Below the pieces are notes generated by a model, which was given only the letters and a program-made list of their open reading frames with translations, had not been told where the DNA came from and did no database searches. Made by a program: the position numbers and the translations under genes. Shown here piece after piece: positions 2,567 through 33,551 of a stretch of DNA of 64,000 nt (the first letter of the stretch is position 1; each line of letters opens with the position of its first letter). This stretch comes from Bryopsis sp. KO-2023 (taxonomy: Eukaryota; Chlorophyta; Ulvophyceae; Bryopsidales; Bryopsidaceae). The stretch covers positions 3,720,001 through 3,784,000 of the forward strand of contig BSYQ01000011.1 in assembly GCA_030272585.1 (NCBI GenBank), given 5' to 3'.

Positions 2567-2709
2567 TGTTGGAACGACCCAATCGAAGTGAGGCTTTATA
2601 GTACAGATCTGGGTTTGTAGTACAGATCTGTCCACCAGTTTTAGGATATAGGGTGAACACTCGGTTGTCTGTTTGTCTTTTGTAACCTTCTCGTTTCCCC
2701 AAAGTAACA
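2567..2709 (+). repeat. 5' LTR of the outer TRIM-like element
   Basis: 143 bp, bounded by TGTT and AACA. It contains a short internal duplication TAGTACAGATCTG (about 2599 and 2618). I saw no differences from the copy at 23519–23661, indicating a young insertion. Confidence 0.85.
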
Positions 2710-2722
2710 TGGTTTCGGAGCC
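2710..2722 (+). promoter_or_regulatory. Candidate primer binding site of the outer LTR element
   Basis: TGGTTTCGGAGCC abuts the LTR end. TGG complements a tRNA CCA end, and the following bases would pair with an acceptor stem. The first twelve bases recur just downstream of the LTRs of the inner 9-kb element, so both may use the same primer tRNA. The isotype was not identified. Confidence 0.6.
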
Positions 2723-2796
2723 AGATTCGCTCTGGGAAAGTGCGCTCTAGGGAGGGCGCAAGCTGTGGAGTAAGTCGCACAAAGAGTGCGCAGTAA

Positions 2797-2915
2797 GTCA
2801 CATCGCAAAACCCAGGCGATGCCCAGACCTTCACGGAGATGACAGTGCCGGATGCACTGGCCTTTTTGCGATCAAGGAAGTCACATCGCAAATCCCAGAC
2901 GATCCCCAGACCTTC
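2797..2915 (+). repeat. Direct repeat inside the outer element, period 83
   Basis: GTCACATCGCAAA begins at 2797 and again at 2880. Each is followed by a related block that includes CCCAGACCTTC. Two diverged units of roughly 36 bases are separated by unique sequence. It lies in the non-coding interior of the TRIM-like element. Confidence 0.7.
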
Positions 2916-3012
2916 CCGTAGCGGAAGTTCGAAGCAAGTCACATCACAAGGTCTGGCCTTTTGCGCCCAAGGACCACGAGCGTACGTCAAGTGCGACTGG
3001 CAAGGGACGAGA

Positions 3013-3316: not shown

Positions 3317-3873
3317 CAGACCTGGGCCCGACCGGACCGGCAGCGAAAAACCGGTCCGGTCCGGTCCAACCTGTCCATGGACCGGCTGACCTGTCCGGTC
3401 CTGTCCGGTCCAGCGAAAAAACGCCGGTCCTTGCAAGACCGGACAGGTTGTGACCTGTCCGGTCCTGTCCACTCCGGTCCAGTCAACCTCGGAAATCTGC
3501 AGAAATCTGGACCGGTTTTCTGACAGATTTTCCGTTTTTAGACAGGTCACACCCACATTTCGCCTTTATTAGACCGGCGATGTGACCTGTCTAAAACCGG
3601 AACGACCCTGTCTTGACAGGGTTGTTCTCCTGTTTTAGACCGGCTCCAGGTCGGTCTGGACAGGTGGGCTGCCGGTCCAGACCGACCTGGAGCCTGTCTA
3701 GAACAGGTCGCACAATTAAGCACTTTTAACGTGCTAATTGTGTATCAATCGACTGAGAACTGATTCAATTGATTAAAGAACGAAGTATTATTTATTATTT
3801 GCATTTTTAATGCATGAATGACGTGAGCCAAGCCCACCAGCCACCGACTAGAGGGAGTCGGTCGACTCAAGGA

Positions 3874-3928
3874 GGATTCGAACCCGGGTTGGCTAAGCCC
3901 GAGTCGAAGACACTATCACTAGTGGACC
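3874..3928 (-). promoter_or_regulatory. tRNA-like Pol III promoter remnant, left arm
   Basis: Mirror copy of the right-arm unit. GGATTCGAACC at 3874–3884 is a B box read on the minus strand. The two tRNA-like units therefore point away from each other from the palindrome centre. Confidence 0.55.
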
Positions 3929-4040
3929 CCACCACAGGGACGCTCAAAAGGGGGCCGTTACTTTTAAGTACCCGTTTAATTTTGGAAAATTAAACGGGTA
4001 CTTAAAAGTAACGGCCCCCTTTTGAGCGTCCCTGTGGTGG

Positions 4041-4095
4041 GGTCCACTAGTGATAGTGTCTTCGACTCGGGCTTAGCCAACCCGGGTTCGAATCC
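4041..4095 (+). promoter_or_regulatory. tRNA-like Pol III promoter remnant, right arm
   Basis: GGTTCGAATCC at 4085–4095 matches the B-box consensus. About 30–40 bases upstream, CCACTAGTGATAG (around 4044–4056) is A-box-like at best. The arrangement recalls a tRNA or tRNA-derived SINE head, but I could not fold a convincing acceptor stem or read an anticodon, so I do not call a tRNA gene. Confidence 0.55.
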
Positions 4096-4566
4096 TCCTT
4101 GAGTCGACCGACTCCCTCTAGTCGGTGGCTGGTGGGCTTGGCTCACGTCATTCATGCATTAAAAATGCAAATAATAAATAATACTTCGTTCTTTAATCAA
4201 TTGAATCAGTTCTCAGTCGGTTAACACATTAAAAAGTGCTTAATTGTGTGACCTGTTCTAGACAGGTGCCAGGTCGGTCTGGACAGGCGGCCCACCTGTC
4301 CAGACCGACTTGGAGTCGGTCTAAAACAGGTCACATTGGGCGTCACATCGGTCTAAAACAGGGTCACACCGGTCTAAAACAGGTCACACGAGTATGACCG
4401 TACTAGACAGGCGACAACCTGTCTGGAAAGGTCAAATCCGGTCTAGAAAGGTCAAATCCGGTCTAGAAAAGGTGGCCTTTACTAGACCGGAGTTGACCTT
4501 TCCAGACCGGAGTTGACCTGTCTAAGAAAGGTCAAATCCGGTCCAGAAAGTGGTTGCCGGTCCGGT

Positions 4567-4571
4567 CCGGT
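4567..4571 (+). repeat. Left target duplication of the 9-kb array
   Basis: CCGGT precedes LTR 1 and the same five bases follow LTR 3 at 23090–23094. The target is itself made of CCGGT repeats, so the exact length of the duplication (5 or more) is ambiguous. Confidence 0.7.
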
Positions 4572-4801
4572 TGATACGAGGTGACGAGGTTAGTGTCTAG
4601 ATGTCCCATCGGTGAGTGGGTGTGTCACTGTAGAGTAAGGGGTTAGTGTGTTGTGGACGGTACTTAAAGGGTTGTATTTTTGACATTGTGTAACCTTTGG
4701 GGCTAGGTTTGCTATTGTGTTGTGTTCCCACGTTCTACCCTCCTCCACTTGGAGGAGGGCCCCTATCTACCCTTCCCCCTCTGGGGGAAGGGCCCCTATC
4801 A
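4572..4801 (+). repeat. LTR 1 of the 9-kb element array
   Basis: 230 bp bounded by TGATA and TATCA. Near its 3' end it contains paired palindromic blocks (CCTCCACTTGGAGG and CCCCCTCTGGGGG) that could form two RNA hairpins, possibly linked to 3'-end formation. Confidence 0.88.
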
Positions 4802-4804
4802 TTT

Positions 4805-4816
4805 TGGTTTCGGAGC
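4805..4816 (+). promoter_or_regulatory. Candidate primer binding site, copy A
   Basis: TGGTTTCGGAGC starts three bases after LTR 1 and equals the candidate site of the outer TRIM-like element, although the two LTR sequences are otherwise unrelated. The same site follows LTR 2 at 13949. Confidence 0.6.
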
Positions 4817-7800
4817 TTGGGCGTCCCTAAACGACGAGGACGGACGACCCTGTAGGAGGAGCCACCTGACGACGAAAAGTCAGTGGCTAGGTTAAGTGCC
4901 TATCAAGAGGGGATGGGCAAGGAGTGATGGCACCAAAGGGGGTGGTGCTAGGTGGGATCGAAGGAGCGCGAGTGCGAGCGACGAGTTCGTAAGCACTGGA
5001 AAGGTCGGGGTAGAGGCGAGGAGAAGGAAACGAAAAGGAACCCGTCGCAGGAAGAGATCTAAGGGTCAGATCTACAGAAATCTGCAGGTGACCTTGTGAC
5101 TGTTAACCTAAAGGACAGCACAGTGGTCGAAAAGAGTTCGAAACAGGTCGAAAGAGGTCGAAAAGCAGTGGAAAGGAAAGCTGAGAGCTTAAGTTTCCCT
5201 AAGACAGAGTTTCGACAGAACCTGTAAATTTCTGGAAGAAGATCTACAGCAGATCTGCAAAGATCTCCTATAAACGAACCACCTATGGACGAACCAAGTT
5301 CGAGTCAACGTTTGTGAGGGAAGTTTGACACACGGACGGCCAACGCTTGGTGGCGGATAGTTGCTGCGCAAGAAGTCGACGACTGCGCCTGTGACAGCTG
5401 CCAGAAATTCCGTTGTCGGACATACAGTCATGTCACACTATGTTGCAGCGGAATTTGGCAGAGCGGAATCCGCGGAGCGGAAGTGTTACATCGGAAGCCG
5501 CAGAGCGGAAATGGCGAGCCGGAAGTGCAGCGGACGAGCCAAAGTCAGACAGCGAATGGAAAAGGCCAGAGTCTGACAGCGGACAAAATGGCGCAGCGGA
5601 CAAAATAGGTGGCGGAAAAAGGGAGCGGACAGAACTCCGAGGTAGTTCGCCAGAGCCGGAAAAACGAAGTCCACCAAAGCGGTTAAACAGAAACGGCGGA
5701 GAGTGAGAGCGGACAGAGGCAGAAGGCGGGCAAAGTGGCCCAGTGACCCGCTGCCCTTACACTCTGCTGGGCGGACAATGATATTCCAACGAGAAGGAAG
5801 AATAGGCGGTGTTGTTGTGAGCTGAAGCGGTTGAGCTTGGAGGAGCACCAGCGGACACACAACACGGAATATCAGCGGACTATCGAGGCTAGAACTACGG
5901 TAGTTTCACGATCGCGTTGGAGGCGGATTTTAATACATCAAGAGTTGGAGGCGGTCATGAAACAGAAGCTGGAGGTTGTGTTACACGGCAGGAGCAGAAA
6001 CGAGTCTGTATCAACGCACAAACCGCCTGGGCTGATCACCCAGCGGATTAGCAACCGCAAAAGAGCGGATTTTCAGTGCGAAGAGAAGAAGACGAAGATC
6101 TTAAGACTTTATACTGCCAAGAGTTGGACCATAGCGGAAGAATGTAAGCACAACTAGCGACAAGAAGACAAAGAGAGAAAAGAAGTCGCCAGGCTAATAG
6201 AGAGCGGAAGAGCGGCCTGCCAGTTACCTACAAACCGAGTTCAAGCGATAGTGGAGTTCAACGCACCCAAGAGGGAGATTAAACCGCCTGCAAAGCTGCT
6301 AAGTACGCAGGGCGGAAGAGAAGGAATCATCTGCTAAGCTATTAAGTATGCAGAATGATTTGTTGCAGAAGGAGCTGTTGGAGAGTATAGTTCGTTTGGA
6401 ATGGACTTTCAATAGGCCAAGACCTCACACAAGCGGATATAAGACGAGCGGATTAAATGTAGCTTGCCGCGAGCTATCGAGCATTCTCGAGAGCTTGAAT
6501 CTGATTAAGGAGCACGCAATAGCAGTGCCACATTGGATGTTTGTGACTTAATGTTATGAACGGGCAAGTGAAGCATTGTTGAAGCTCTGAGCGGATATCT
6601 TGTGGGTAAACTTTGAGGTCTAATGGATGTGGTAGCGGATTGTGATATTCCGGGCTGAGTGAAGAAGAAGAATTAGAGGTTAATGCCGTGGAAGTGTATG
6701 GTGGTATTCTTTGGAACTAATCGAGTTACCATGGAACCAACCGAGGATCACGAGCGGAAAAATTCATTCTCTTTTCAACAGCGGAATAGCAGAGGCGGAC
6801 TAAATGAGGTCGTCAAGGCGGACTAAATTATACCGTCAGGCGGATTAAATTAGACCGTCAAGAACCTGAGCCAGAGCGGAAATAAAAGAGTCAACCTGGA
6901 TGATCAGGTCCAAGGACTATTGGCTGAAAGACTAAGCGGAATCGTACGTCTGGTCAGGGCGGACACTACCACAAACCATTGAGCGGATATGGCTCACAAT
7001 ACTAGCCATACATGGAAGTCTAGCGCCAAGAACAACACCCAAAAGTCTAAGGAGTATTCATCGACCAAATTACAGCCGTCAGACTATTGCACTAAGCGGA
7101 CTAAAAGCTAAGGCAAAGGCGGACTGTCAGCGCGGACTGCTGAGGCAGAATGCAAAGGCGATGAGGGTGTGTGTCTTGAGCGGAAATTCCAATGCAGCAA
7201 AGGTGCAAGCGGACTAAGTGACAGACAATACAGGCATTCAAAGAGCGGAGTAAATGTGCTTATATGGAGACAGTAGAACTGCCAAGCGGAAATCAACAAA
7301 GCCAGAGCGGATGGTGAAGCTGCTACTGGGATTATATGTGATTGCTTGAGCGGAAAGTTCAACTGCTCATGAAGAGTAAATGCCATAAGCTGAAGCGGAA
7401 ATGGATGAAGATTCCAAGCTAATGTTGTGGCGGACATTAATCACACTCTGTGGCCGCAGAAGCGGAAATTGGTGCTTGCAAAGTCAAGTGGCGAAGGCCA
7501 TAAAATGGCGGATTGTCTATAGTCATCTACCTCCATACAAGACCCAACCTGGAGCGGGTAGAAGCCAAGTTTTCATATATTGGCGCTTATATATATATCA
7601 TATGGAGCATTCAAATATGATCACCGACAAGCGTGTTCTGTCAAAGCTTGAACAGCATGGAGCGCGAGCAAAGAGTCAGCGGATTTTTGTCAGAAGCAAG
7701 AGAACAAGCGGATTATCAAGTGGATTGGAAGTAAGGGCGGATTATACTCGTATTAGCCAGTGTAAGGCATTGAGTTAACCGAACCTGAAGAGCGGAAAAA

Positions 7801-10800
7801 GCTACCAAACGGATAAGGAGTGCTACTGACAAAATAATTTAAAGGAAAAGCGCAAACTCAAGGATCAGCGGAAAAAGCTATGTGTCTGGGAGAGTTGAGC
7901 GCTGAAGAATGGATTCTACTGCTGACGAGCGGACAAAATTATGGAAGATCCTGCAAATGACAAAGCATGCGGAAAAAGATGCATAAGAGCATGTCGGAGT
8001 GGAGGAAACTTGTCAGAGAAGCGGATTATTTAGTGCCAGGGAGATGAGTCCTACCACAGAAGACACATTTGGATGAAGGAGCGGAATTGCATCATTACCA
8101 AGACTTCAAGAGTTGCTGGAGGCGGAATACTACTGTCAGTTGGGGATTAAAGCGGAAATTTTGAACAAGTAGGCCGACCTAAGAAGGGCGCCACTAAATA
8201 GAGATTTCCAGGAGCTTAATCCAAAGCTTGAAGGACCAGCAAGCGAAAGATTGACTGGAATTGGAATTGGAAAGAAGCTAACGACAGATATCCACGACAT
8301 GAGCGGATATTGCTTCAGATGGCGGAACACTAAAGTGTATAGGCGGATTACTAGCTTGAGCAGCCTATGGCGCCAGCAGATTCGACCTAAACCGGACAAT
8401 ACTGAAGCAGGCATGGAATGGATGGATCCAGCAATGATGATGGGGAGAATGGACTCCAAAGCTGACTCCAAAGCGGACTATAAGGTTCCAAACTATCCTA
8501 GACACCGAGAAGCGAGTAAATGGAAGTTTTGAAGCTTTGTGGTCGGGACAAGGAGTGCTTTGCTTCCGTATACTGAAGAAGTTGTCCAACATTGAGAGGG
8601 TGGAAGAACCACGATCAAAGAAGCGGAATACAGCTCTTATTTGAAGCTTAAAGCGGATAAATCTTGACTGAGCATTGCTCAAGAGCGGATTCCAGCGAAT
8701 AGTGGTCACCAAGAGCGGAAATACTATGTCTTGGTAACAAGCCTGGAAGGATGAATTAGACTACAAGACAGGCGGCTAGTGCCTGATCAATGGAGGGCAA
8801 GTGGCGGAATTTAAGTGCCACTACACTTTGTGTGATATATAGTTTCCTGGGCAGATAAGAAATGCTTGAGAAATAAGAGACCATTACCAGAAAAACCCAA
8901 AACGCGGACAAAGGAAGCAGCGAATCAATCGGACAATCGCAAGGAAGCGGGTCTGATAACGCCCACCTCAAAGAGAGTTGGGGCGGATTTCCTGAGCGGA
9001 TATTTTAAAAGAGATTTGGCTGGCTACTTGTCAAGCGGAAACAGGGGATGGGGACTTCCTGGAATGGCGAAAAGCATAGCTGAACGCGGATTGGCTGGAG
9101 AGGAGGCAGATAAAGATTGAGCGTGGAAGCGGCGGTTATGCGTGGAGCATAATCAACAAAGAGGCGGAAATCCAGGTGTGCACGATGGATGGATGCCAGA
9201 AGGCCGGACAAATCCCAAAGACCAGGGATGGCGCAATCCATGCCGAGGCCTAACTTTGTGGAGCAACCAGAGCAGCCTAAAACGCCATACCAAGCAATGA
9301 GCACCACGTGGACAAAAAGGCTTGGGAGACTATTGAGGTGCGGTAGTTTCAACCAGTCTGGCAAGACTGTTATGGTGTATACTGAGAGACCCAAGCTAGG
9401 AGAGCTTGAACCAGGCGAAGCAATCTGGTTGAAGGTTGACAAACAAACAAATCGCGCTAGAGGTCCAAACTAGCGACCGCGGAGCATCCACTGACAGGTG
9501 GTCAGGGCGGAAAACAGAGTTTCCTTGGATGCTACACTTAAAGGCGAGTGAGCGGGCAGATTTGTTGAAGTGGAGAAATATACCAGTCGAGAGAGAAGTG
9601 GTGAACCTCTTCAAAAGGCGGACTAAGAGGGAAACCAAGTACCTTGGAGCTAAGAACGAAGCGTTGGAACGCACACCAGAACTCCTTAGAGTCATCTGAG
9701 TGTGGCGGATTGTTGAAGATGTTAATAAGTTCGACAAAAAGAAGATGCTTCAAGCTCTGTCAGCGGACTGCAAATATGTGTGGAGGAAGAATTTAATTCG
9801 AGTATTGTGCATTGACAGCCCATTCAGTGAAATGTGCAGAACCGGGTAATCCGTCGGCACCCTTGTCCATAGGGAGAACGGTCTATTCCTGGTTGTTGTG
9901 AACGCCTGTGTTAAGGTGTGTGCCTTTACTCGACATTAAACGTCCGAAGGATTCCTTATAGCAGCAAAGTTCAACTTGGACAAGGAGGAACACGATAATT
10001 TGAAGTAGTCCAAGACCGCAACCTTGAGGAAGGCGGACCTGAGAAGCGGACCTGGAGGGCGGACTAAAGAGGACTAAGCCCTTAGGCGGATTAAACACCT
10101 GGAGGGCGGACTAAAAGTTTAGCCTTCGGGCGGATTAAAGCTTCATCAGGCGGACTATGAAGGGCTCAAGGGCGGACTTCAAAACAAATTCCAAAGGCGG
10201 ATGAAATCAGACAGCCAGAGCGGGTTAAATACGACTGCTAGAGCCGGATTTTGAAGGTGAACTTGCGTGAAACTACAAGTAGGAACGACTATGCTGATTT
10301 GGAAGGCAGATTACAAGGCTTTCGTTCAATACAAGACCAAGGGCGGAAGTGCCACATATTGTGCAGAAACCAGCGGACAGAAGAGGATATGAAGAGCTCA
10401 AGACTTCGGGCGAAGTACCAACAGTTGAGAGGGGACTGTTTGGGCGACAAAGCGGGAACTCTGACGGGGATGTCTTGCAGCAGGAAAACGGGGGCAAGCT
10501 CCTCAACTAGTGTTCTGGACAGCCGTGGTACGAACACTGGCCCGCTAGTCGGTTGAGCTGGAGATTATCGTTCAGGGTACTGAAGAGAAGACGAAGGTCT
10601 TCCTCCAGAGGCAAGTCAAGCGTGAAGAAAAAGGAGGAGGACTTCCGACACTTGATGAGGCTCAAGCCGGAGCCAAAATCAAGATGTGCTAACCCGCTAA
10701 GCGGATTAGTTACGTCGGGAAGTCGCTTGTCAAGGGGCGAGCAGGGATGCACAGTTCCCCTCAGGCGGAACTGCTGTTCGAACAAGGGGTAACCCAACGG

Positions 10801-11949
10801 GGGTTACCTGGATACTTTCTTCTCGGGAAGGCGTGCATTGACTTCCAGCAAACTAAACCTCGCTGAAAATAGGATCAAGAGCGGATTTGCCAAGCCACAA
10901 GCGCGCAGAAGGAGGACCAAGGGGATTATCCAAAGGCGATTTAACTTTGGACGTGCAAGGTAAAAGAGAGACAAAAACTATCGGGGAAGGTGAACACTGC
11001 CAAGTGGTACCCGAGTTATTTGTCTGAGGAGCGGAAGTCGACGGACTGACATTCCTTTAACTCTTTCTTGCGGAACTTTCTATTTAGTGGTATCTAAATG
11101 GATAGTGCGGACAAGACCGTCTTGTTGCTGGCGGACTATTTCCAAGGTTCTTTGGAAGGCGGGGGTTAAAAGGTAATCTCTGTGGCGGAAGGTATATGGA
11201 GTGTATTTCGCGTGGAAGTCAACAAGTTTGAAGTGGCGGAACTTGGGGACTAACCGAGCATTGATGAGAGCGGACTATCTGCGGTGAAAAGAATCGACTC
11301 GTGTTTGGATCTAGACAGTATCGAAGAGATAGCGGGCTCGAAAAATGAGCACACATTGCGATTCTATAGGGATGGAGTAAGCGGAAATACTCAGTTGGTG
11401 ATTTACTACCTATAGACGCAACCGTGAAACTTTGGGAAGTTTACATACAAAGCGATGCCGTGAGAAGGATCCAAAGACGACGGAGGTGGCGGCTCATGCA
11501 ATGGAAAACAAAAGAAGGAATGTGCGGACATTCAAAAATTACTCTTCTCCAACGAAGGAAACTCGAGCGGACGTGGAACTGACCGAAGGGCGGATTATCA
11601 CAGAAGCCGAGCAAAGAAAGAAACCGAAATAAATCCTGAACTATGACCCGTGCAGACGGAAGACACATACAGCTGAGTGACTGAATTCGTTCGGGCGGAT
11701 TAATTGTACATCAGTTGGCGGAAACAGCAACTGAAGCGGATAATGCACTTGTCAGGAAAAAAAGCAACTTCGACTACGGCGGAAGAAGCGAAGTTCTGAA
11801 GAGAACTTGAAGGGTATTCGACTGGCGGATTGTGACCAGCGGATTAAGCCTGTTGGGATATGACTCGCGGGTTAATCTTGGCGGAATCACATTGCTAGCG
11901 AATACGAAGACAAGAAGCATTTGGGCGGACAAAATCCAGTACTTAAGGC

Positions 11950-12036
11950 GGATATCGTGCCTGCAGAAGCGGAAATTGTGCTGCAGAAGCGGAATTGTGC
12001 CTGTGGAAGCGGATATTGTGCCTGAAGAAGCGACAC
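11950..12036 (+). repeat. Short degenerate tandem repeat, about 21 bp
   Basis: Four degenerate units of the form GTGCCTGCAGAAGCGGAAATT, with small indels. In one frame they read V-P-A-E-A-E-I-like, but a one-base shift interrupts the second unit. An identical block lies 9144 bases downstream. Confidence 0.65.
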
Positions 12037-12556
12037 AATTCCAGTGAGCGGAATATGAAGGCGGAATTGATGATCTCAAAGAGCCAAAGCGGGAAAAAAT
12101 CAGTCAAGGCGGAAAATATCAGCCACGGCGGAATTTGAGGATCACGGTCGCACGTACAATTAGGAACGAATGAAAGGGCGTCAAAGCGAACGTTGGAGCG
12201 ACCTAGCGGACAACACTAAGCGGAAGTTCTGATCAACAACCGACTTGGAGGCGTGAGGGTAGCTATGCAACGATTGACTCAGTCACGAGCGGATTATGGA
12301 TGTTCTGAAGCTGAGGATGTATTGGAGACTTATGGGGGTTTACCAAAGCATCAGAGGATTGGCCGAAGACAACAAAGAATCGCCAGGGTGGATTAAATTG
12401 GACCACCAGGGCGGATTAATTCAAACCGCCGAAGAAGGAGCGGACATTATTTGAAGACCCAAACTCGGAAAAACATTGGAGCGGACCACTGAAGACAATA
12501 GCACTGGAGCAGAAAGGACGAAGAGGTCAGGGAATGGCCGGACGCTCTGCTGCATA

Positions 12557-12890
12557 TACTGGCTCTCGCTGCTACGTAGGGACTCTAGTAGCCAACCAGC
12601 GGATTGTGATTCGATGAGATCCTGGGGGAAATGTAGGCCTCAGACAAATCTCTATAGCAGTGGCCATACATGTTATGGATATGCTCGAGCGGCTATTGTT
12701 CTGAGGTGTTGCGGCGGAGAAACTCATGGGAGATTCGTAGGGACGTTGAAGAGAGAAGAAGCTGAGAGATCAGCCGGACTTCTCATCGGTGTACTGGCTC
12801 TCGCTGCTAAGTGGGGACTCTAGCAGTCAACCAGCTTAGTGAGATCCTGGGGGTATCCGCATAGGATTTGGCCTCGGACAAATCTCTACA
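12557..12890 (+). repeat. Diverged internal duplication in copy A
   Basis: TACTGGCTCTCGCTGCT begins at 12557 and again at 12792. Each is followed by related AACCAGC, GATCCTGGGGG and ACAAATCTCTA blocks. Two units of about 100 bases are separated by about 130 bases. It is mirrored in copy B at +9144. Confidence 0.7.
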
Positions 12891-13695
12891 CTGATGACCG
12901 CTTATATACTAGCGGATAAACGTAACGAATGGAGTGTTGTGCCTAAGTGATATCCGACCAAGCGTTTTACCGAGCGAAGAACGAAGATGTACCGTGGAAG
13001 GAAGGAAAAATATCAGTTGTAAATGAAGAAAACGGAAGTGGAAATCTGACCAAGGAATTGCAGCGGCATTGGAATTGACCAAAACTGCAATGGATGAAAA
13101 GCCGCAGCGGATATCAACAGCAGCGGACTACAGGAGAGTGTCTGACAAGAGCGAAGCTTATGGTTTCCGACTAAGTGAAACTGCGAAGCGAGGTAGCGAG
13201 CGGAAGTTATAATCTAAGCTTGCGCGGACTTGGAGTCTTGAACGGATAAAGCATAGCGGGCATTTCTTCATGTTCGTGTGCTGAATCACGAGCAAGAAGA
13301 CATTGCAAGCAATGCTTATGCCATGTTTAACCTTCTCCTTGGCGGTACTCGTGGGCGGAATCCACATCCGCACCATAGAACCACGAGTTAGGAGAGGCTT
13401 GAGCGGGCTATTACTAAATGCCCTGATGAAGCAAGCAGACGAAGAAGCGGGCATCCGTCCAAGCAAGAGACACAAGGTTTTTGGATTTCACAGAGTATGG
13501 GATCTGTTATGCCGTTTGAAAATCATCTTGTTTGCATGATTGTGAGGTTTGTTTTCTATTTTTCTATTTTTCTTCGTGTTTTGTTCAGTGGATGGCCCTG
13601 TTTCTCTTTTTAGCGGCCAATCAAACTACTTATTCTTTATTTCTTTCGGGTTTTTCTTTCGCGATTAACTTTCTTGAGTGCTGAGGACACCACTC

Positions 13696-13715
13696 GGGGG
13701 GGGGGGGGGAGTAGT
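13696..13715 (+). promoter_or_regulatory. Polypurine tract of copy A
   Basis: A run of 14 G (13696–13709) followed by AGTAGT directly precedes LTR 2. It is the expected site of plus-strand priming, and a T-rich stretch lies upstream (about 13540–13680). Confidence 0.7.
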
Positions 13716-13945
13716 TGATACGAGGTGACGAGGTTAGTGTCTAGATGTCCCATCGGTGAGTGGGTGTGTCACTGTAGAGTAAGGGGTTAGTGTGTTGTGG
13801 ACGGTACTTAAAGGGTTGTATTTTTGACATTGTGTAACCTTTGGGGCTAGGTTTGCTATTGTGTTGTGTTCCCACGTTCTACCCTCCTCCACTTGGAGGA
13901 GGGCCCCTATCTACCCTTCCCCCTCTGGGGGAAGGGCCCCTATCA
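13716..13945 (+). repeat. LTR 2, shared by copies A and B
   Basis: 230 bp with no difference I could see from LTR 1. It serves as the 3' LTR of copy A and the 5' LTR of copy B. Confidence 0.88.
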
Positions 13946-13948
13946 TTT

Positions 13949-13960
13949 TGGTTTCGGAGC
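13949..13960 (+). promoter_or_regulatory. Candidate primer binding site, copy B
   Basis: Identical to the site at 4805–4816, three bases after the end of LTR 2. Confidence 0.6.
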
Positions 13961-14495
13961 TTGGGCGTCCCTAAACGACGAGGACGGACGACCCTGTAGG
14001 AGGAGCCACCTGACGACGAAAAGTCAGTGGCTAGGTTAAGTGCCTATCAAGAGGGGATGGGCAAGGAGTGATGGCACCAAAGGGGGTGGTGCTAGGTGGG
14101 ATCGAAGGAGCGCGAGTGCGAGCGACGAGTTCGTAAGCACTGGAAAGGTCGGGGTAGAGGCGAGGAGAAGGAAACGAAAAGGAACCCGTCGCAGGAAGAG
14201 ATCTAAGGGTCAGATCTACAGAAATCTGCAGGTGACCTTGTGACTGTTAACCTAAAGGACAGCACAGTGGTCGAAAAGAGTTCGAAACAGGTCGAAAGAG
14301 GTCGAAAAGCAGTGGAAAGGAAAGCTGAGAGCTTAAGTTTCCCTAAGACAGAGTTTCGACAGAACCTGTAAATTTCTGGAAGAAGATCTACAGCAGATCT
14401 GCAAAGATCTCCTATAAACGAACCACCTATGGACGAACCAAGTTCGAGTCAACGTTTGTGAGGGAAGTTTGACACACGGACGGCCAACGCTTGGT

Positions 14496-17400
14496 GGCGG
14501 ATAGTTGCTGCGCAAGAAGTCGACGACTGCGCCTGTGACAGCTGCCAGAAATTCCGTTGTCGGACATACAGTCATGTCACACTATGTTGCAGCGGAATTT
14601 GGCAGAGCGGAATCCGCGGAGCGGAAGTGTTACATCGGAAGCCGCAGAGCGGAAATGGCGAGCCGGAAGTGCAGCGGACGAGCCAAAGTCAGACAGCGAA
14701 TGGAAAAGGCCAGAGTCTGACAGCGGACAAAATGGCGCAGCGGACAAAATAGGTGGCGGAAAAAGGGAGCGGACAGAACTCCGAGGTAGTTCGCCAGAGC
14801 CGGAAAAACGAAGTCCACCAAAGCGGTTAAACAGAAACGGCGGAGAGTGAGAGCGGACAGAGGCAGAAGGCGGGCAAAGTGGCCCAGTGACCCGCTGCCC
14901 TTACACTCTGCTGGGCGGACAATGATATTCCAACGAGAAGGAAGAATAGGCGGTGTTGTTGTGAGCTGAAGCGGTTGAGCTTGGAGGAGCACCAGCGGAC
15001 ACACAACACGGAATATCAGCGGACTATCGAGGCTAGAACTACGGTAGTTTCACGATCGCGTTGGAGGCGGATTTTAATACATCAAGAGTTGGAGGCGGTC
15101 ATGAAACAGAAGCTGGAGGTTGTGTTACACGGCAGGAGCAGAAACGAGTCTGTATCAACGCACAAACCGCCTGGGCTGATCACCCAGCGGATTAGCAACC
15201 GCAAAAGAGCGGATTTTCAGTGCGAAGAGAAGAAGACGAAGATCTTAAGACTTTATACTGCCAAGAGTTGGACCATAGCGGAAGAATGTAAGCACAACTA
15301 GCGACAAGAAGACAAAGAGAGAAAAGAAGTCGCCAGGCTAATAGAGAGCGGAAGAGCGGCCTGCCAGTTACCTACAAACCGAGTTCAAGCGATAGTGGAG
15401 TTCAACGCACCCAAGAGGGAGATTAAACCGCCTGCAAAGCTGCTAAGTACGCAGGGCGGAAGAGAAGGAATCATCTGCTAAGCTATTAAGTATGCAGAAT
15501 GATTTGTTGCAGAAGGAGCTGTTGGAGAGTATAGTTCGTTTGGAATGGACTTTCAATAGGCCAAGACCTCACACAAGCGGATATAAGACGAGCGGATTAA
15601 ATGTAGCTTGCCGCGAGCTATCGAGCATTCTCGAGAGCTTGAATCTGATTAAGGAGCACGCAATAGCAGTGCCACATTGGATGTTTGTGACTTAATGTTA
15701 TGAACGGGCAAGTGAAGCATTGTTGAAGCTCTGAGCGGATATCTTGTGGGTAAACTTTGAGGTCTAATGGATGTGGTAGCGGATTGTGATATTCCGGGCT
15801 GAGTGAAGAAGAAGAATTAGAGGTTAATGCCGTGGAAGTGTATGGTGGTATTCTTTGGAACTAATCGAGTTACCATGGAACCAACCGAGGATCACGAGCG
15901 GAAAAATTCATTCTCTTTTCAACAGCGGAATAGCAGAGGCGGACTAAATGAGGTCGTCAAGGCGGACTAAATTATACCGTCAGGCGGATTAAATTAGACC
16001 GTCAAGAACCTGAGCCAGAGCGGAAATAAAAGAGTCAACCTGGATGATCAGGTCCAAGGACTATTGGCTGAAAGACTAAGCGGAATCGTACGTCTGGTCA
16101 GGGCGGACACTACCACAAACCATTGAGCGGATATGGCTCACAATACTAGCCATACATGGAAGTCTAGCGCCAAGAACAACACCCAAAAGTCTAAGGAGTA
16201 TTCATCGACCAAATTACAGCCGTCAGACTATTGCACTAAGCGGACTAAAAGCTAAGGCAAAGGCGGACTGTCAGCGCGGACTGCTGAGGCAGAATGCAAA
16301 GGCGATGAGGGTGTGTGTCTTGAGCGGAAATTCCAATGCAGCAAAGGTGCAAGCGGACTAAGTGACAGACAATACAGGCATTCAAAGAGCGGAGTAAATG
16401 TGCTTATATGGAGACAGTAGAACTGCCAAGCGGAAATCAACAAAGCCAGAGCGGATGGTGAAGCTGCTACTGGGATTATATGTGATTGCTTGAGCGGAAA
16501 GTTCAACTGCTCATGAAGAGTAAATGCCATAAGCTGAAGCGGAAATGGATGAAGATTCCAAGCTAATGTTGTGGCGGACATTAATCACACTCTGTGGCCG
16601 CAGAAGCGGAAATTGGTGCTTGCAAAGTCAAGTGGCGAAGGCCATAAAATGGCGGATTGTCTATAGTCATCTACCTCCATACAAGACCCAACCTGGAGCG
16701 GGTAGAAGCCAAGTTTTCATATATTGGCGCTTATATATATATCATATGGAGCATTCAAATATGATCACCGACAAGCGTGTTCTGTCAAAGCTTGAACAGC
16801 ATGGAGCGCGAGCAAAGAGTCAGCGGATTTTTGTCAGAAGCAAGAGAACAAGCGGATTATCAAGTGGATTGGAAGTAAGGGCGGATTATACTCGTATTAG
16901 CCAGTGTAAGGCATTGAGTTAACCGAACCTGAAGAGCGGAAAAAGCTACCAAACGGATAAGGAGTGCTACTGACAAAATAATTTAAAGGAAAAGCGCAAA
17001 CTCAAGGATCAGCGGAAAAAGCTATGTGTCTGGGAGAGTTGAGCGCTGAAGAATGGATTCTACTGCTGACGAGCGGACAAAATTATGGAAGATCCTGCAA
17101 ATGACAAAGCATGCGGAAAAAGATGCATAAGAGCATGTCGGAGTGGAGGAAACTTGTCAGAGAAGCGGATTATTTAGTGCCAGGGAGATGAGTCCTACCA
17201 CAGAAGACACATTTGGATGAAGGAGCGGAATTGCATCATTACCAAGACTTCAAGAGTTGCTGGAGGCGGAATACTACTGTCAGTTGGGGATTAAAGCGGA
17301 AATTTTGAACAAGTAGGCCGACCTAAGAAGGGCGCCACTAAATAGAGATTTCCAGGAGCTTAATCCAAAGCTTGAAGGACCAGCAAGCGAAAGATTGACT

Positions 17401-20400
17401 GGAATTGGAATTGGAAAGAAGCTAACGACAGATATCCACGACATGAGCGGATATTGCTTCAGATGGCGGAACACTAAAGTGTATAGGCGGATTACTAGCT
17501 TGAGCAGCCTATGGCGCCAGCAGATTCGACCTAAACCGGACAATACTGAAGCAGGCATGGAATGGATGGATCCAGCAATGATGATGGGGAGAATGGACTC
17601 CAAAGCTGACTCCAAAGCGGACTATAAGGTTCCAAACTATCCTAGACACCGAGAAGCGAGTAAATGGAAGTTTTGAAGCTTTGTGGTCGGGACAAGGAGT
17701 GCTTTGCTTCCGTATACTGAAGAAGTTGTCCAACATTGAGAGGGTGGAAGAACCACGATCAAAGAAGCGGAATACAGCTCTTATTTGAAGCTTAAAGCGG
17801 ATAAATCTTGACTGAGCATTGCTCAAGAGCGGATTCCAGCGAATAGTGGTCACCAAGAGCGGAAATACTATGTCTTGGTAACAAGCCTGGAAGGATGAAT
17901 TAGACTACAAGACAGGCGGCTAGTGCCTGATCAATGGAGGGCAAGTGGCGGAATTTAAGTGCCACTACACTTTGTGTGATATATAGTTTCCTGGGCAGAT
18001 AAGAAATGCTTGAGAAATAAGAGACCATTACCAGAAAAACCCAAAACGCGGACAAAGGAAGCAGCGAATCAATCGGACAATCGCAAGGAAGCGGGTCTGA
18101 TAACGCCCACCTCAAAGAGAGTTGGGGCGGATTTCCTGAGCGGATATTTTAAAAGAGATTTGGCTGGCTACTTGTCAAGCGGAAACAGGGGATGGGGACT
18201 TCCTGGAATGGCGAAAAGCATAGCTGAACGCGGATTGGCTGGAGAGGAGGCAGATAAAGATTGAGCGTGGAAGCGGCGGTTATGCGTGGAGCATAATCAA
18301 CAAAGAGGCGGAAATCCAGGTGTGCACGATGGATGGATGCCAGAAGGCCGGACAAATCCCAAAGACCAGGGATGGCGCAATCCATGCCGAGGCCTAACTT
18401 TGTGGAGCAACCAGAGCAGCCTAAAACGCCATACCAAGCAATGAGCACCACGTGGACAAAAAGGCTTGGGAGACTATTGAGGTGCGGTAGTTTCAACCAG
18501 TCTGGCAAGACTGTTATGGTGTATACTGAGAGACCCAAGCTAGGAGAGCTTGAACCAGGCGAAGCAATCTGGTTGAAGGTTGACAAACAAACAAATCGCG
18601 CTAGAGGTCCAAACTAGCGACCGCGGAGCATCCACTGACAGGTGGTCAGGGCGGAAAACAGAGTTTCCTTGGATGCTACACTTAAAGGCGAGTGAGCGGG
18701 CAGATTTGTTGAAGTGGAGAAATATACCAGTCGAGAGAGAAGTGGTGAACCTCTTCAAAAGGCGGACTAAGAGGGAAACCAAGTACCTTGGAGCTAAGAA
18801 CGAAGCGTTGGAACGCACACCAGAACTCCTTAGAGTCATCTGAGTGTGGCGGATTGTTGAAGATGTTAATAAGTTCGACAAAAAGAAGATGCTTCAAGCT
18901 CTGTCAGCGGACTGCAAATATGTGTGGAGGAAGAATTTAATTCGAGTATTGTGCATTGACAGCCCATTCAGTGAAATGTGCAGAACCGGGTAATCCGTCG
19001 GCACCCTTGTCCATAGGGAGAACGGTCTATTCCTGGTTGTTGTGAACGCCTGTGTTAAGGTGTGTGCCTTTACTCGACATTAAACGTCCGAAGGATTCCT
19101 TATAGCAGCAAAGTTCAACTTGGACAAGGAGGAACACGATAATTTGAAGTAGTCCAAGACCGCAACCTTGAGGAAGGCGGACCTGAGAAGCGGACCTGGA
19201 GGGCGGACTAAAGAGGACTAAGCCCTTAGGCGGATTAAACACCTGGAGGGCGGACTAAAAGTTTAGCCTTCGGGCGGATTAAAGCTTCATCAGGCGGACT
19301 ATGAAGGGCTCAAGGGCGGACTTCAAAACAAATTCCAAAGGCGGATGAAATCAGACAGCCAGAGCGGGTTAAATACGACTGCTAGAGCCGGATTTTGAAG
19401 GTGAACTTGCGTGAAACTACAAGTAGGAACGACTATGCTGATTTGGAAGGCAGATTACAAGGCTTTCGTTCAATACAAGACCAAGGGCGGAAGTGCCACA
19501 TATTGTGCAGAAACCAGCGGACAGAAGAGGATATGAAGAGCTCAAGACTTCGGGCGAAGTACCAACAGTTGAGAGGGGACTGTTTGGGCGACAAAGCGGG
19601 AACTCTGACGGGGATGTCTTGCAGCAGGAAAACGGGGGCAAGCTCCTCAACTAGTGTTCTGGACAGCCGTGGTACGAACACTGGCCCGCTAGTCGGTTGA
19701 GCTGGAGATTATCGTTCAGGGTACTGAAGAGAAGACGAAGGTCTTCCTCCAGAGGCAAGTCAAGCGTGAAGAAAAAGGAGGAGGACTTCCGACACTTGAT
19801 GAGGCTCAAGCCGGAGCCAAAATCAAGATGTGCTAACCCGCTAAGCGGATTAGTTACGTCGGGAAGTCGCTTGTCAAGGGGCGAGCAGGGATGCACAGTT
19901 CCCCTCAGGCGGAACTGCTGTTCGAACAAGGGGTAACCCAACGGGGGTTACCTGGATACTTTCTTCTCGGGAAGGCGTGCATTGACTTCCAGCAAACTAA
20001 ACCTCGCTGAAAATAGGATCAAGAGCGGATTTGCCAAGCCACAAGCGCGCAGAAGGAGGACCAAGGGGATTATCCAAAGGCGATTTAACTTTGGACGTGC
20101 AAGGTAAAAGAGAGACAAAAACTATCGGGGAAGGTGAACACTGCCAAGTGGTACCCGAGTTATTTGTCTGAGGAGCGGAAGTCGACGGACTGACATTCCT
20201 TTAACTCTTTCTTGCGGAACTTTCTATTTAGTGGTATCTAAATGGATAGTGCGGACAAGACCGTCTTGTTGCTGGCGGACTATTTCCAAGGTTCTTTGGA
20301 AGGCGGGGGTTAAAAGGTAATCTCTGTGGCGGAAGGTATATGGAGTGTATTTCGCGTGGAAGTCAACAAGTTTGAAGTGGCGGAACTTGGGGACTAACCG

Positions 20401-22503
20401 AGCATTGATGAGAGCGGACTATCTGCGGTGAAAAGAATCGACTCGTGTTTGGATCTAGACAGTATCGAAGAGATAGCGGGCTCGAAAAATGAGCACACAT
20501 TGCGATTCTATAGGGATGGAGTAAGCGGAAATACTCAGTTGGTGATTTACTACCTATAGACGCAACCGTGAAACTTTGGGAAGTTTACATACAAAGCGAT
20601 GCCGTGAGAAGGATCCAAAGACGACGGAGGTGGCGGCTCATGCAATGGAAAACAAAAGAAGGAATGTGCGGACATTCAAAAATTACTCTTCTCCAACGAA
20701 GGAAACTCGAGCGGACGTGGAACTGACCGAAGGGCGGATTATCACAGAAGCCGAGCAAAGAAAGAAACCGAAATAAATCCTGAACTATGACCCGTGCAGA
20801 CGGAAGACACATACAGCTGAGTGACTGAATTCGTTCGGGCGGATTAATTGTACATCAGTTGGCGGAAACAGCAACTGAAGCGGATAATGCACTTGTCAGG
20901 AAAAAAAGCAACTTCGACTACGGCGGAAGAAGCGAAGTTCTGAAGAGAACTTGAAGGGTATTCGACTGGCGGATTGTGACCAGCGGATTAAGCCTGTTGG
21001 GATATGACTCGCGGGTTAATCTTGGCGGAATCACATTGCTAGCGAATACGAAGACAAGAAGCATTTGGGCGGACAAAATCCAGTACTTAAGGCGGATATC
21101 GTGCCTGCAGAAGCGGAAATTGTGCTGCAGAAGCGGAATTGTGCCTGTGGAAGCGGATATTGTGCCTGAAGAAGCGACACAATTCCAGTGAGCGGAATAT
21201 GAAGGCGGAATTGATGATCTCAAAGAGCCAAAGCGGGAAAAAATCAGTCAAGGCGGAAAATATCAGCCACGGCGGAATTTGAGGATCACGGTCGCACGTA
21301 CAATTAGGAACGAATGAAAGGGCGTCAAAGCGAACGTTGGAGCGACCTAGCGGACAACACTAAGCGGAAGTTCTGATCAACAACCGACTTGGAGGCGTGA
21401 GGGTAGCTATGCAACGATTGACTCAGTCACGAGCGGATTATGGATGTTCTGAAGCTGAGGATGTATTGGAGACTTATGGGGGTTTACCAAAGCATCAGAG
21501 GATTGGCCGAAGACAACAAAGAATCGCCAGGGTGGATTAAATTGGACCACCAGGGCGGATTAATTCAAACCGCCGAAGAAGGAGCGGACATTATTTGAAG
21601 ACCCAAACTCGGAAAAACATTGGAGCGGACCACTGAAGACAATAGCACTGGAGCAGAAAGGACGAAGAGGTCAGGGAATGGCCGGACGCTCTGCTGCATA
21701 TACTGGCTCTCGCTGCTACGTAGGGACTCTAGTAGCCAACCAGCGGATTGTGATTCGATGAGATCCTGGGGGAAATGTAGGCCTCAGACAAATCTCTATA
21801 GCAGTGGCCATACATGTTATGGATATGCTCGAGCGGCTATTGTTCTGAGGTGTTGCGGCGGAGAAACTCATGGGAGATTCGTAGGGACGTTGAAGAGAGA
21901 AGAAGCTGAGAGATCAGCCGGACTTCTCATCGGTGTACTGGCTCTCGCTGCTAAGTGGGGACTCTAGCAGTCAACCAGCTTAGTGAGATCCTGGGGGTAT
22001 CCGCATAGGATTTGGCCTCGGACAAATCTCTACACTGATGACCGCTTATATACTAGCGGATAAACGTAACGAATGGAGTGTTGTGCCTAAGTGATATCCG
22101 ACCAAGCGTTTTACCGAGCGAAGAACGAAGATGTACCGTGGAAGGAAGGAAAAATATCAGTTGTAAATGAAGAAAACGGAAGTGGAAATCTGACCAAGGA
22201 ATTGCAGCGGCATTGGAATTGACCAAAACTGCAATGGATGAAAAGCCGCAGCGGATATCAACAGCAGCGGACTACAGGAGAGTGTCTGACAAGAGCGAAG
22301 CTTATGGTTTCCGACTAAGTGAAACTGCGAAGCGAGGTAGCGAGCGGAAGTTATAATCTAAGCTTGCGCGGACTTGGAGTCTTGAACGGATAAAGCATAG
22401 CGGGCATTTCTTCATGTTCGTGTGCTGAATCACGAGCAAGAAGACATTGCAAGCAATGCTTATGCCATGTTTAACCTTCTCCTTGGCGGTACTCGTGGGC
22501 GGA
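14496..22503 (+). repeat. GCGGA-rich non-coding interior, copy B
   Basis: Second copy of the GCGGA-dense tract, offset by 9144 bases and identical wherever compared. It shows the same strand asymmetry and the same lack of coding signal. Confidence 0.85.
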
Positions 22504-22839
22504 ATCCACATCCGCACCATAGAACCACGAGTTAGGAGAGGCTTGAGCGGGCTATTACTAAATGCCCTGATGAAGCAAGCAGACGAAGAAGCGGGCATCC
22601 GTCCAAGCAAGAGACACAAGGTTTTTGGATTTCACAGAGTATGGGATCTGTTATGCCGTTTGAAAATCATCTTGTTTGCATGATTGTGAGGTTTGTTTTC
22701 TATTTTTCTATTTTTCTTCGTGTTTTGTTCAGTGGATGGCCCTGTTTCTCTTTTTAGCGGCCAATCAAACTACTTATTCTTTATTTCTTTCGGGTTTTTC
22801 TTTCGCGATTAACTTTCTTGAGTGCTGAGGACACCACTC

Positions 22840-22859
22840 GGGGGGGGGGGGGGAGTAGT
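22840..22859 (+). promoter_or_regulatory. Polypurine tract of copy B
   Basis: A 14-G run at 22840–22853 followed by AGTAGT, directly before LTR 3. The homopolymer length equals that of copy A, which is notable because G runs drift quickly. Confidence 0.7.
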
Positions 22860-23089
22860 TGATACGAGGTGACGAGGTTAGTGTCTAGATGTCCCATCGG
22901 TGAGTGGGTGTGTCACTGTAGAGTAAGGGGTTAGTGTGTTGTGGACGGTACTTAAAGGGTTGTATTTTTGACATTGTGTAACCTTTGGGGCTAGGTTTGC
23001 TATTGTGTTGTGTTCCCACGTTCTACCCTCCTCCACTTGGAGGAGGGCCCCTATCTACCCTTCCCCCTCTGGGGGAAGGGCCCCTATCA
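22860..23089 (+). repeat. LTR 3 of the array
   Basis: 230 bp, third copy of the TGATA…TATCA repeat. It is followed by CCGGT and the right end of the hAT-like element. Confidence 0.88.
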
Positions 23090-23094
23090 CCGGT
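23090..23094 (+). repeat. Right target duplication of the 9-kb array
   Basis: CCGGT directly after LTR 3. It pairs with 4567–4571, after which the right end of the hAT-like element resumes. Confidence 0.7.
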
Positions 23095-23296: not shown

Positions 23297-23518
23297 ATCT
23301 CCCTTAGAGCCAAGTCAGAAGACAGTCAGTGTGTACAGGGAAATGGTTTTCATGCTGTTTTTGTTCCGCTTATTTGTTTGCGCTTATGAGGAAAATAAGG
23401 TTTTGATTGAGGATGAGTATCATCCTGTCAGAAAAAAAATATATGGGCCCACCACGCATTTCATTGTGGGGAAACTTGAACAGAGTTCAAGGGTCGGAGT
23501 TTTATGCGCCGTGAAGCG

Positions 23519-23661
23519 TGTTGGAACGACCCAATCGAAGTGAGGCTTTATAGTACAGATCTGGGTTTGTAGTACAGATCTGTCCACCAGTTTTAGGATA
23601 TAGGGTGAACACTCGGTTGTCTGTTTGTCTTTTGTAACCTTCTCGTTTCCCCAAAGTAACA
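23519..23661 (+). repeat. 3' LTR of the outer TRIM-like element
   Basis: Second 143-bp copy of the TGTTGG…GTAACA repeat, followed by the AAAG target duplication at 23662–23665. Confidence 0.85.
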
Positions 23662-32282: not shown

Positions 32283-33551
32283 GTCCCCAAAAATGAACAG
32301 CAACAAGCAAGGAGAAAAAAAAAATAGAAAAAGAGAGTTGTTTCGTTGCGCTTCTGTTTCACAACTCGAGCCGTGCTTTTACGTTGGAACCACAATAAAG
32401 CAGTGTTGTCTTGTGGGTTCGTCTTTTCTTCTGGGAAAAAAAAAAAGATTTGGAATTTAATCGTTTTCGGTTTCTTTTTGTGAAGTGTGCAGAGTAAAAA
32501 TTGAAATTGGGGGCGTGTTTTTTCTTGTCAGGACGCGCGACGGATGCATACAGTTTCCCTCGGAGGTGTGCAGTGCCGAGGCGTTCCGAGTCTGAGTCCT
32601 GCACAGATTCACAGATTCAAACCACCACCCCTGGCACAAACTGTCGACTGTGAGAAACACTCAGAACACCAGGGGAGCTGGCAAAAAAATCGAATCCACA
32701 CGAAGAGAACTTGCATGTTTAGACAAGCAGTTGTCGGATCTAATGCGAGTCGGAGAAACAAGGTCGGAGAAATGCAAGTTCCGAATGTTACGTGCAAAAC
32801 ACTCTCTCCCTCCACTCCACTCCACAATCTGCGATCGACCCAACAGAATCCACCAGAAATCAAAGGCCACATGGACGACGGGAAGACATATCTTTCTTTT
32901 TACTGAAGTGATACATATCACCCCGATATGACGGCAAGAGCCGCAACTTGCAACTCTGCACGCACCAATTGGATTGACAAAATCCTCACACGTATGAGTT
33001 CAACTTCAGCAAGTTCCAAAAAAACTAGACGCTGGTGCGTGTGCACGGACACAAATTGGCGTTTCCGATCAATCGGGACGCCCTTGCGCAGTGTAAAGCA
33101 AAAAAAGTGCCAAAACGCTCAGCTGGTTTGACGATTTCGGCGTCGAGGCCAATCTCCTTTTTTTTGCTCGTGACTAGAACTCTGAAGGTCCATAAGCGAT
33201 ACTTGTCCCCGACTGCGCCTCAACGTTGAGGTAATTCTTGATATCGGGAACGATTGTGCAGTGAATGCTTTCTACGCAAGTCCTGGAAAAGTACACAGCA
33301 ACATTCGTCTTCTGATCTCTTGTGTTCTTCACTACCCAATAACCTTTCGACCGACCTGTTCGGGGCCATGGTTCCAAAAACATCAGAAACAACAGAACCT
33401 TCCTTGACGATTTCTGATTAATTCTACGACCCAACCTAGTACACAAGTCCGTATTTATTTCCACTTTCTGTTCTTGTTGTGCGCAGTACAGATTTTAGTC
33501 TTGCTTGGCTTGGAACTTGGAACATCCCAACAAAAAGGGGAAGCGTCGAAA
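32283..33551. promoter_or_regulatory. Divergent upstream region between the KDM5-like and GT64-like genes
   Basis: About 1.27 kb separates two start codons pointing away from each other. It must hold both promoters and 5' UTRs. I see no clear TATA box, motif array or third gene. An in-frame ATG at 33474 upstream of the chosen GT64 start could extend that protein by 26 residues. Confidence 0.5.

Follow-up and report, generated by a model that had tools for sequence, protein, structure and literature searches.

The interior of a long terminal repeat (LTR) retrotransposon of Bryopsis sp. KO-2023 is carpeted on one strand with the pentamer GCGGA, mostly in the extended form RGCGGAHW, over 8 kb in which no coding was recognised. 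The element lies in the window analysed here, a 64,000-nt stretch of contig BSYQ01000011.1 (positions 3,720,001 to 3,784,000) whose own numbering is used below. The carpet has sharp boundaries within the element, its extended motif is concentrated in one family of copies, and the motif is also present in the untranslated leader of an autonomous Ty3/Gypsy family, named here after locus L062. We consider it probable, at roughly 0.65, that the carpet is an array of protein-binding sites read in RNA, the reader being either a Gag protein or a host protein.

The GCGGA carpet and the element that carries it

GCGGA occurs 134 times in the 8008 nt from 5352 to 13359, or 16.7 times per kb and once per 60 nt. 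In 300 dinucleotide-preserving shuffles the expected count was 13.7 (standard deviation, SD, 3.4; maximum 23), and the highest count of any pentamer across all of them was 55. These counts bear out the original prediction, made from the letters of the window, of a GCGGA carpet on one strand of this LTR-element interior. The prediction was right that the motif is dense, but not that it occurs once or twice per 60 nt, and its chance expectation of about one per kb was too low, the dinucleotide expectation being 1.7 per kb. The comparison with other pentamers that it had proposed also comes out in its favour: the next most frequent, AGCGG (88) and GGCGG (58), overlap GCGGA, and the single-substitution variants of GCGGA are found 0 to 21 times each. 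The complement TCCGC, predicted to be rare, occurs twice; it is not depleted, however, since 3.1 are expected from dinucleotide shuffles, and the strand asymmetry therefore reflects gain on one strand. Wobble partners are not depleted in the carpet either (UYYGY, 31 versus 34.8 expected).

The carpet is not a coding repeat. As predicted, the motif occupies all three frames (46/45/43 by position modulo 3), and no Pfam family matched the X-masked three forward frames of the interior at E values up to 5. Stop codons number 123, 111 and 107 per frame among about 2669 codons; the frequent closeness to stops noted in the original prediction can follow from the A/T-rich 3' flank. A coding interior was rejected, the longest plus-strand open reading frame (ORF) in the carpet, with ATG, GTG or TTG as start, being only 125 amino acids, and tblastn of the L062-locus ORFs against the carpet gave nothing convincing (best E 0.91). 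A known RNA family was likewise rejected: the five Rfam matches with E up to 1 in window positions 1-24500 were all below gathering scores, and none lay in either carpet copy. ARAGORN found no tRNA within the window, and 4 kb of leader and carpet had no match in a phage collection.

The bases around the pentamer are also specified. A purine precedes GCGGA at 124 of 134 sites, a base other than G follows at 129, and the second base after it is A or T at 111. The resulting RGCGGAHW fits 100 of 133 carpet sites, as compared to 23 of 92 GCGGA sites pooled from 13 control sequence sets (P 6e-14). The first motif stands at 5353, right after the leader, and the last ends at 13359, about 350 bp short of the 3' LTR. 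Both 4571-5351, the 5' LTR with the leader, and 13360-13713 are free of GCGGA, an absence with a chance of about 6e-9 at carpet density.

The proposed analysis of spacing showed near-random placement (median 41, mean 60) with a shortage of close neighbours. Spacings below 13 nt number 2 of 133 overall and 0 of the 124 that lie outside arrays reported by Tandem Repeats Finder (TRF), and none is of 10-12 nt. Simulations gave 10.0 such spacings with a 9-nt exclusion (P 0.002) and 7.7 with a 10-nt exclusion (P 0.014); with an 11-nt exclusion 5.3 are expected and the deficit is not significant (P 0.10). The deficit is footprint-like. TRF reported six short tandem arrays with 12-23-nt units, and because 124 of the 133 spacings fall outside them the motif is dispersed, strand-specific and mostly non-tandem, as had been claimed; a recently expanded simple tandem unit, named at the outset as an explanation that would overturn that claim, does not account for most sites. 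Similarity between spacers was 0.0030 versus 0.0020 (SD 0.0006) at random sites, at most slightly higher. The carpet contains 24 direct-repeat families of at least 18 nt; of the 20 shown, most include the motif, and some have copies kilobases apart. Local duplications thus exist, and part of the motifs arose as copies of others, but for the majority no such origin can be detected. In one 85% duplicate pair (12557-12610 and 12792-12845) GCGGATTGT stands in one member and is missing from its partner, so that gain or loss of the motif can be seen directly.

A non-autonomous LTR retrotransposon has the carpet as its interior and is present in the window as a tandem pair with these features:

4567..4571, no strand: target-site duplication CCGGT, left copy, read from the sequence within a short CCGGT-rich stretch
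4572..4801, plus strand: first LTR, 230 bp, TGATA...TATCA, from self-BLAST and sequence
4802..5351, plus strand: leader, GCGGA-free, with five AGATCT palindromes, resembling the leader of the autonomous Gypsy loci L071 and L073-L075
4805..4816, plus strand: putative primer binding site TGGTTTCGGAGC, common to autonomous Ty3/Gypsy families of this genome
5352..13359, plus strand: carpet, 134 GCGGA on this strand and 2 on the opposite one, extended motif RGCGGAHW, no Pfam match in forward frames
13696..13715, plus strand: G-run and AGTAGT ahead of the 3' LTR, read from the sequence
13716..13945, plus strand: second LTR, common to both tandem copies
13946..22859, plus strand: second, identical leader and carpet, tandem period 9144 bp
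22860..23089, plus strand: third LTR
23090-23094: target-site duplication CCGGT, right copy, read from the sequence

The three 230-bp LTRs are identical by self-BLAST and have inverted ends; the layout is LTR-interior-LTR-interior-LTR, and in self-comparison the two units, with a period of 9144 bp, agree letter for letter. A single element including both LTRs measures 9.37 kb. The CCGGT duplication flanks the pair as a whole, as checked at this tandem pair, and the putative primer site begins 3 nt past the 5' LTR. The G-run with AGTAGT is a probable polypurine tract, to judge from its letters. The sharing of the middle LTR by tandem units at 4572-23089 is either very recent or an effect of assembly. 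We regard the 9-kb mobile element as young, and the carpet strand is presumed to be the transcribed one. No pol of its own (reverse transcriptase, RNase H, integrase) that would place the element in Ty3/Gypsy was recognised in the three forward frames, and its putative link to that group runs solely through primer site, LTR ends and leader.

Genomic distribution of the family and of the motif

The genome searched comprises 91.1 Mb in 28 contigs, and its 107 matches to the chlorophyll a/b-binding family mark the organism as photosynthetic. The junction of LTR end and primer site was found at 42 exact sites and at one site with one mismatch, at a locus assigned to the family, which gives about 43 copies. 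A search with LTR and leader returned 41 matches of 94-100% identity, some of them partial (40 of 98 candidates scored). All 28 other copies that were read at their 5' part have the carpet: over the following 1.5 kb, 27 of these copies hold 28-32 GCGGA each, and L006, where the match ends early, holds 19. Copies vary by internal deletions: L063, L064 and L065 are without partly different segments and keep 112, 99 and 118 motifs in the stretches fetched, that of L065 stopping before the 3' end. A supposed diverged copy, initially a 79% match at C1:5105390, was rejected as an internal deletion in the otherwise 97% copy L065. In L063 the deletion junction, at about 2478, falls inside a pair of AGCGGAAT copies, which is what template switching at the motif would produce; at three L064 junctions examined no junction of the AGCGGAAT type was seen.

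The extended motif is concentrated in the carpet family. Clusters of three RGCGGAHW spaced a short way apart number 533 forward and 478 reverse genome-wide, versus 48 and 35 for the reversed pattern, and of the 100 that were listed, in order and all from contig C1, 89 fall within the family. Four of the 11 outside clusters in that list belong to the L062-type leader (C1:3393013, 3393028, 9016589 and 9016604), and the remaining seven resemble, to judge by sequence, short tandem repeats or coding repeats. Without its flanks the pentamer is less confined to the family: GCGGA triples number 2000 and 1810 on the two strands versus 441 and 572 for the reversed pattern. Because one full carpet unit holds 42 of them, the roughly 43 copies explain at most about half, and the triples listed before C1:5.1 Mb are mostly in other, coding-like repeats.

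The family that shares the motif, of the kind the original prediction had proposed to search for, is an autonomous Ty3/Gypsy. L062, with LTRs of about 230 bp, contains ORFs for gag and pol, and its Gag, as read from the translation, has an RGG-rich stretch and one CCHC knuckle. The 604-nt leader carries seven GCGGA and no TCCGC, and all seven sites fit RGCGGAHW (P 1.4e-4 versus pooled controls). Three further leaders of the L062 family have GCGGA:TCCGC counts of 5:0, 7:0 and 7:0, with 5, 6 and 7 sites in the extended form, and L077, a relative about 80% identical to L062, has 5:0 with all five extended, some of them where L062 differs. We compared ten other Gypsy loci, sorted into about six groups. 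The leaders of L066, L067, L068, L069 and L071-L075 (147-2248 nt) hold 0-2 GCGGA each and one RGCGGAHW in total, and the leader region of L070, where the primer site was not found, holds no GCGGA.

Shuffle tests on these leaders suggest that some Gypsy families carry short motifs of their own. The leader of L069 (893-1588), whose gag is 57% identical to that of L062, has the one-strand hexamer GACGCA at 7:0, and that of L071 has CGGAAA at 6:2, both above all 200 shuffles; L070 has TCTTAG at 6:0 (P 0.015), and the leaders of L066, L067 and L072 gave no significant hexamer. A second carpet built of GACGCA was looked for and rejected, just 11 triples being found genome-wide (reversed pattern 4), none of them a carpet. 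L068 contains a long GATC-rich stretch at about 900-2400, with GATCG 34 times and TGATC 33 times in the 2.2 kb from primer site to ORF, which may be a nested insertion. Dense CTGTGCAG/GCACAG repeats were seen at two Gypsy loci (L073, about 2600-3000; L069, about 230-640).

The surroundings of the tandem pair have features of their own. Some 700 bp immediately to the left of the insertion (3629-4330) match their own reverse complement at 94.7%, forming a long hairpin that is MITE-like (resembling a miniature inverted-repeat transposable element). An identical 144-bp direct repeat stands on either side of the insertion (2566-2709 and 23518-23661). A KDM5-like gene of several exons lies on the minus strand at 24453-32378, with JmjN, ARID, JmjC, C5HC2, PLU-1 and PHD domains; for one of its exons two relatives were found, 61 and 59% identical, and the source of both carries the tag lgn.

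Candidate readers of the motif

A reader of single-stranded nucleic acid, that is RNA, is favoured because the sites lie on one strand and are mostly not copies of one another, have set flanks, keep a footprint-like minimum distance and are missing from the ends of the element. Leaders of LTR retroelements are where packaging signals are expected, and because a Gypsy leader has the same motif the Gag or nucleocapsid protein is the leading candidate. On this view a non-autonomous LTR retrotransposon of Ty3/Gypsy type would carry the carpet as cargo, and its 9-kb RNA would offer a sequence-specific RNA-binding protein about 134 short RGCGGAHW sites, read solely on the transcribed strand. As binder, the Gag/nucleocapsid of the autonomous L062-type Gypsy would be the most economical choice; the element could then act as a defective parasite whose entire length, beyond the leader, serves as a multivalent signal for packaging and assembly. 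We infer each step of this scheme: transcription of the element, activity at the level of its RNA, binding by a protein, the identity of that protein as Gag and an effect of binding on packaging. Binding by the L062-type Gag we propose tentatively, at somewhat less than even odds; that the whole 8-kb interior serves the Gag of another family as an array of more than 100 sites, with multivalency and not a local structured signal winning packaging or assembly, is a bolder version that we hold doubtful.

Several observations weigh against the RNA-level reading, and against its Gag version in particular. The main tension is that the recognition ends of the element resemble one Gypsy group and its motif the leader of another. 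The primer-site sequence TGGTTTCGGAGC is common to L066, L067, L068, L069, L071-L075 and three of the L062-family leaders; L062 itself differs at its end. The LTR ends TGATA/TATCA are common to the carpet family and the L071/L073-L075 group, clearest in L071 and L073; AGATCT palindromes number five in the leader in the window and four in each leader of that group. In leader alignments L073 scored 35 (shuffle maximum 22) and L075, L074 and L071 scored 28.5, 26 and 24 (maxima 16.5-17.5), while the other seven scored 15.0-19.5, mostly within 1-3 of their own shuffle maxima. These similarities point to the L071/L073-L075 group as the nearest autonomous kin, and L062 may therefore not be the natural helper. 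That group is without a carpet and its leaders hold 0-2 GCGGA; the motif is shared with L062-type leaders, but LTR ends and leader point to L073-type helpers that do not have it. The Gag-like binding in the original prediction fits the sharing of motif and flanks with one autonomous untranslated leader, but is weakened by this indication of another helper.

Other points concern the motif itself. The P value for the L062 leader was favoured by the choice of that locus for its motif cluster. In the L062 coding region GCGGA occurs 28 times versus 14.7 in synonymous shuffles (0 of 300 reach it), but the extended context is present at just 6 of these 28 sites, a share like that of controls, and this excess therefore cannot clearly be equated with the carpet signal. 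Outside the carpet family, looser GCGGA triples are frequent. The carpet sites are no more accessible than controls: a motif presented by structure was tried and rejected, the mean unpaired probability being 0.071 versus 0.066 (SD 0.008) in block shuffles. Close copies vary alike in and outside motifs (17/155 sites versus 149/1337). When shared variants are taken as having arisen in active lineages, the shared-to-singleton counts are 7/11 in motifs versus 93/58 outside (P 0.078), and 8/12 versus 83/46 with motifs defined by majority. For the latter, shared variants alone show no difference (8/160 versus 83/1222; P 0.50), whereas motifs have proportionally more singletons (12/160 versus 46/1222; P 0.035), a surplus that could be attributable to CpG mutability. 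Across the columns that four copies have in common, variation affects 10 of 360 motif sites and 193 of 3741 others (P 0.055). Selection on the transcript, as originally predicted, is thus suggested as a constraint in active lineages, by tests that reach only P 0.055 and 0.078.

The second RNA-level possibility is a host RNA-binding protein, such as an SR-like protein or export adaptor, that would keep the 9-kb non-coding RNA stable, unspliced and exported, in the manner of the dispersed sites of certain intronless RNAs, the L062 leader using the same factor; we judge it possible but on the unlikely side. It would suit a one-strand, frame-independent motif with a GGA core, and would cover two families that have different LTR ends and the same motif with no need of an L062 helper. 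When GCGGA was masked, the top residual pentamers included TTGGA (25 versus 9.4), ATGGA (25 versus 10.3) and TGGAG (26 versus 11.8). The sense strand contains few strong 5' splice-site words (GTRAGT 0 versus 3.1, GTAAG 4 versus 8.3, GTGAG 7 versus 12.3), but the shortage is slight, and the antisense counts are lower still (0, 1 and 2). A general signal should moreover be wider: no significant GCGGA excess over synonymous shuffles was found in the exons of the KDM5-like gene (5.7 kb), the one host gene examined, or in 11 other Gypsy coding stretches, two of them of 0.7-0.8 kb (lowest P 0.097). With the sites no more accessible than controls, this speaks against the part of the original prediction that saw splicing suppression or export as a general host code.

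A neutral origin, in which slippage, template switching or conversion seeded at GCGGA spread the motif without function, appears improbable. Its traces may be seen in the six tandem arrays, in the direct-repeat families, most of those shown including the motif, and in one of the four deletion junctions examined, that of L063, and it accords with the lack of clear motif constraint among close copies. It would leave unexplained that the spacers are mostly not detectably related, that the flanking bases are specified, that the carpet's edges coincide with the leader and the 3' end, and that a separate Gypsy leader has the extended motif; one-step variants of GCGGA stand at ordinary levels, and no mutational funnel is seen.

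An array read in DNA is hardly likely either. According to the VANC21 report (PMC5735166), non-coding DNA of one transposable element family, Arabidopsis VANDAL21, carries dense short motifs in the same orientation that are bound as double-stranded DNA by the element's own protein, and the target arrays grew by tandem repetition. By analogy, an element-encoded or host DNA-binding protein might read the integrated carpet element, for example lifting its silencing as VANC21 does for VANDAL21. The carpet, too, is a dense, non-coding array of a short motif in one orientation, concentrated in one family, and with this precedent orientation alone does not exclude a DNA reader. However, tandem growth accounts for orientation in the VANC arrays as that report describes them, whereas the carpet is mostly not built as tandem repeats: its spacers are mostly unique and its flanks show little relic similarity. 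Since the sites are mostly non-tandem, the 134:2 orientation is harder to explain for a reader of double-stranded DNA. VANDAL21 also encodes its binder, and the carpet element encodes no recognised protein. Least likely is host use of the transcript as a protein sponge or in another regulatory, lncRNA-like way, or else a concealed code that some unusual mechanism reads. One site repeated many times on a single long non-coding RNA would suit this, but no use by the host is required for a mobile family that has about 43 copies and cis ends free of the motif, and the X-masked forward frames had no Pfam match.

Comparison with known systems

Large retrotransposon derivatives (LARDs) are non-autonomous LTR retrotransposons with a long non-coding interior, and the first described ones have kilobase-long LTRs. 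The carpet element resembles them in its LTRs, its primer-site sequence, its many similar copies and its interior of several kb without recognised coding, and is presumably also mobilised in trans; it differs in having LTRs of just 230 bp and a pentamer carpet on one strand. Terminal-repeat retrotransposons in miniature (TRIMs) are short, well under 2 kb, whereas the carpet element measures 9.37 kb.

Repeated protein sites on a long RNA have precedents. NORAD is an RNA in which repeated protein sites have a sponge role. Intronless transcripts of the NORAD type (PMC9186391) resemble the carpet RNA in presenting repeated putative protein sites on a long intronless non-coding RNA, from which the carpet element differs in being mobile and in having more than 100 sites. 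Dispersed packaging signals of RNA viruses, as described in PMC6281560, comprise many short sites per RNA with a shared coat-protein recognition motif, and are sequence-structure motifs, stem-loops in MS2. The carpet RNA would be alike in its many short sites with a common motif along one molecule; it differs in that its motif shows no preference for unpaired positions and that its sites are known from sequence alone.

Gene-less long LTR elements pose the question of what maintains a long non-coding interior, and the carpet offers a countable, strand-specific signal in one family, with sharp limits and a match in the leader of an autonomous family. If Gag binds it, the element would be a direct test case for the capture of helper particles by non-autonomous elements and for dispersed packaging signals beyond viruses; if a host protein does, it would expose an RNA-handling code of this organism. 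The original prediction knew of no described retroelement so organised. Literature on LARDs, intronless export, dispersed packaging signals, and GCGGA in binding or in retrotransposons contained no GCGGA carpet at the level of listings and abstract openings, in line with that claim, although the VANC arrays (PMC5735166) are a described analogue at the DNA level. A non-autonomous LTR element with a long non-coding interior is of a known kind; the GCGGA carpet, of a sort for which we know of no earlier description, is the new part.

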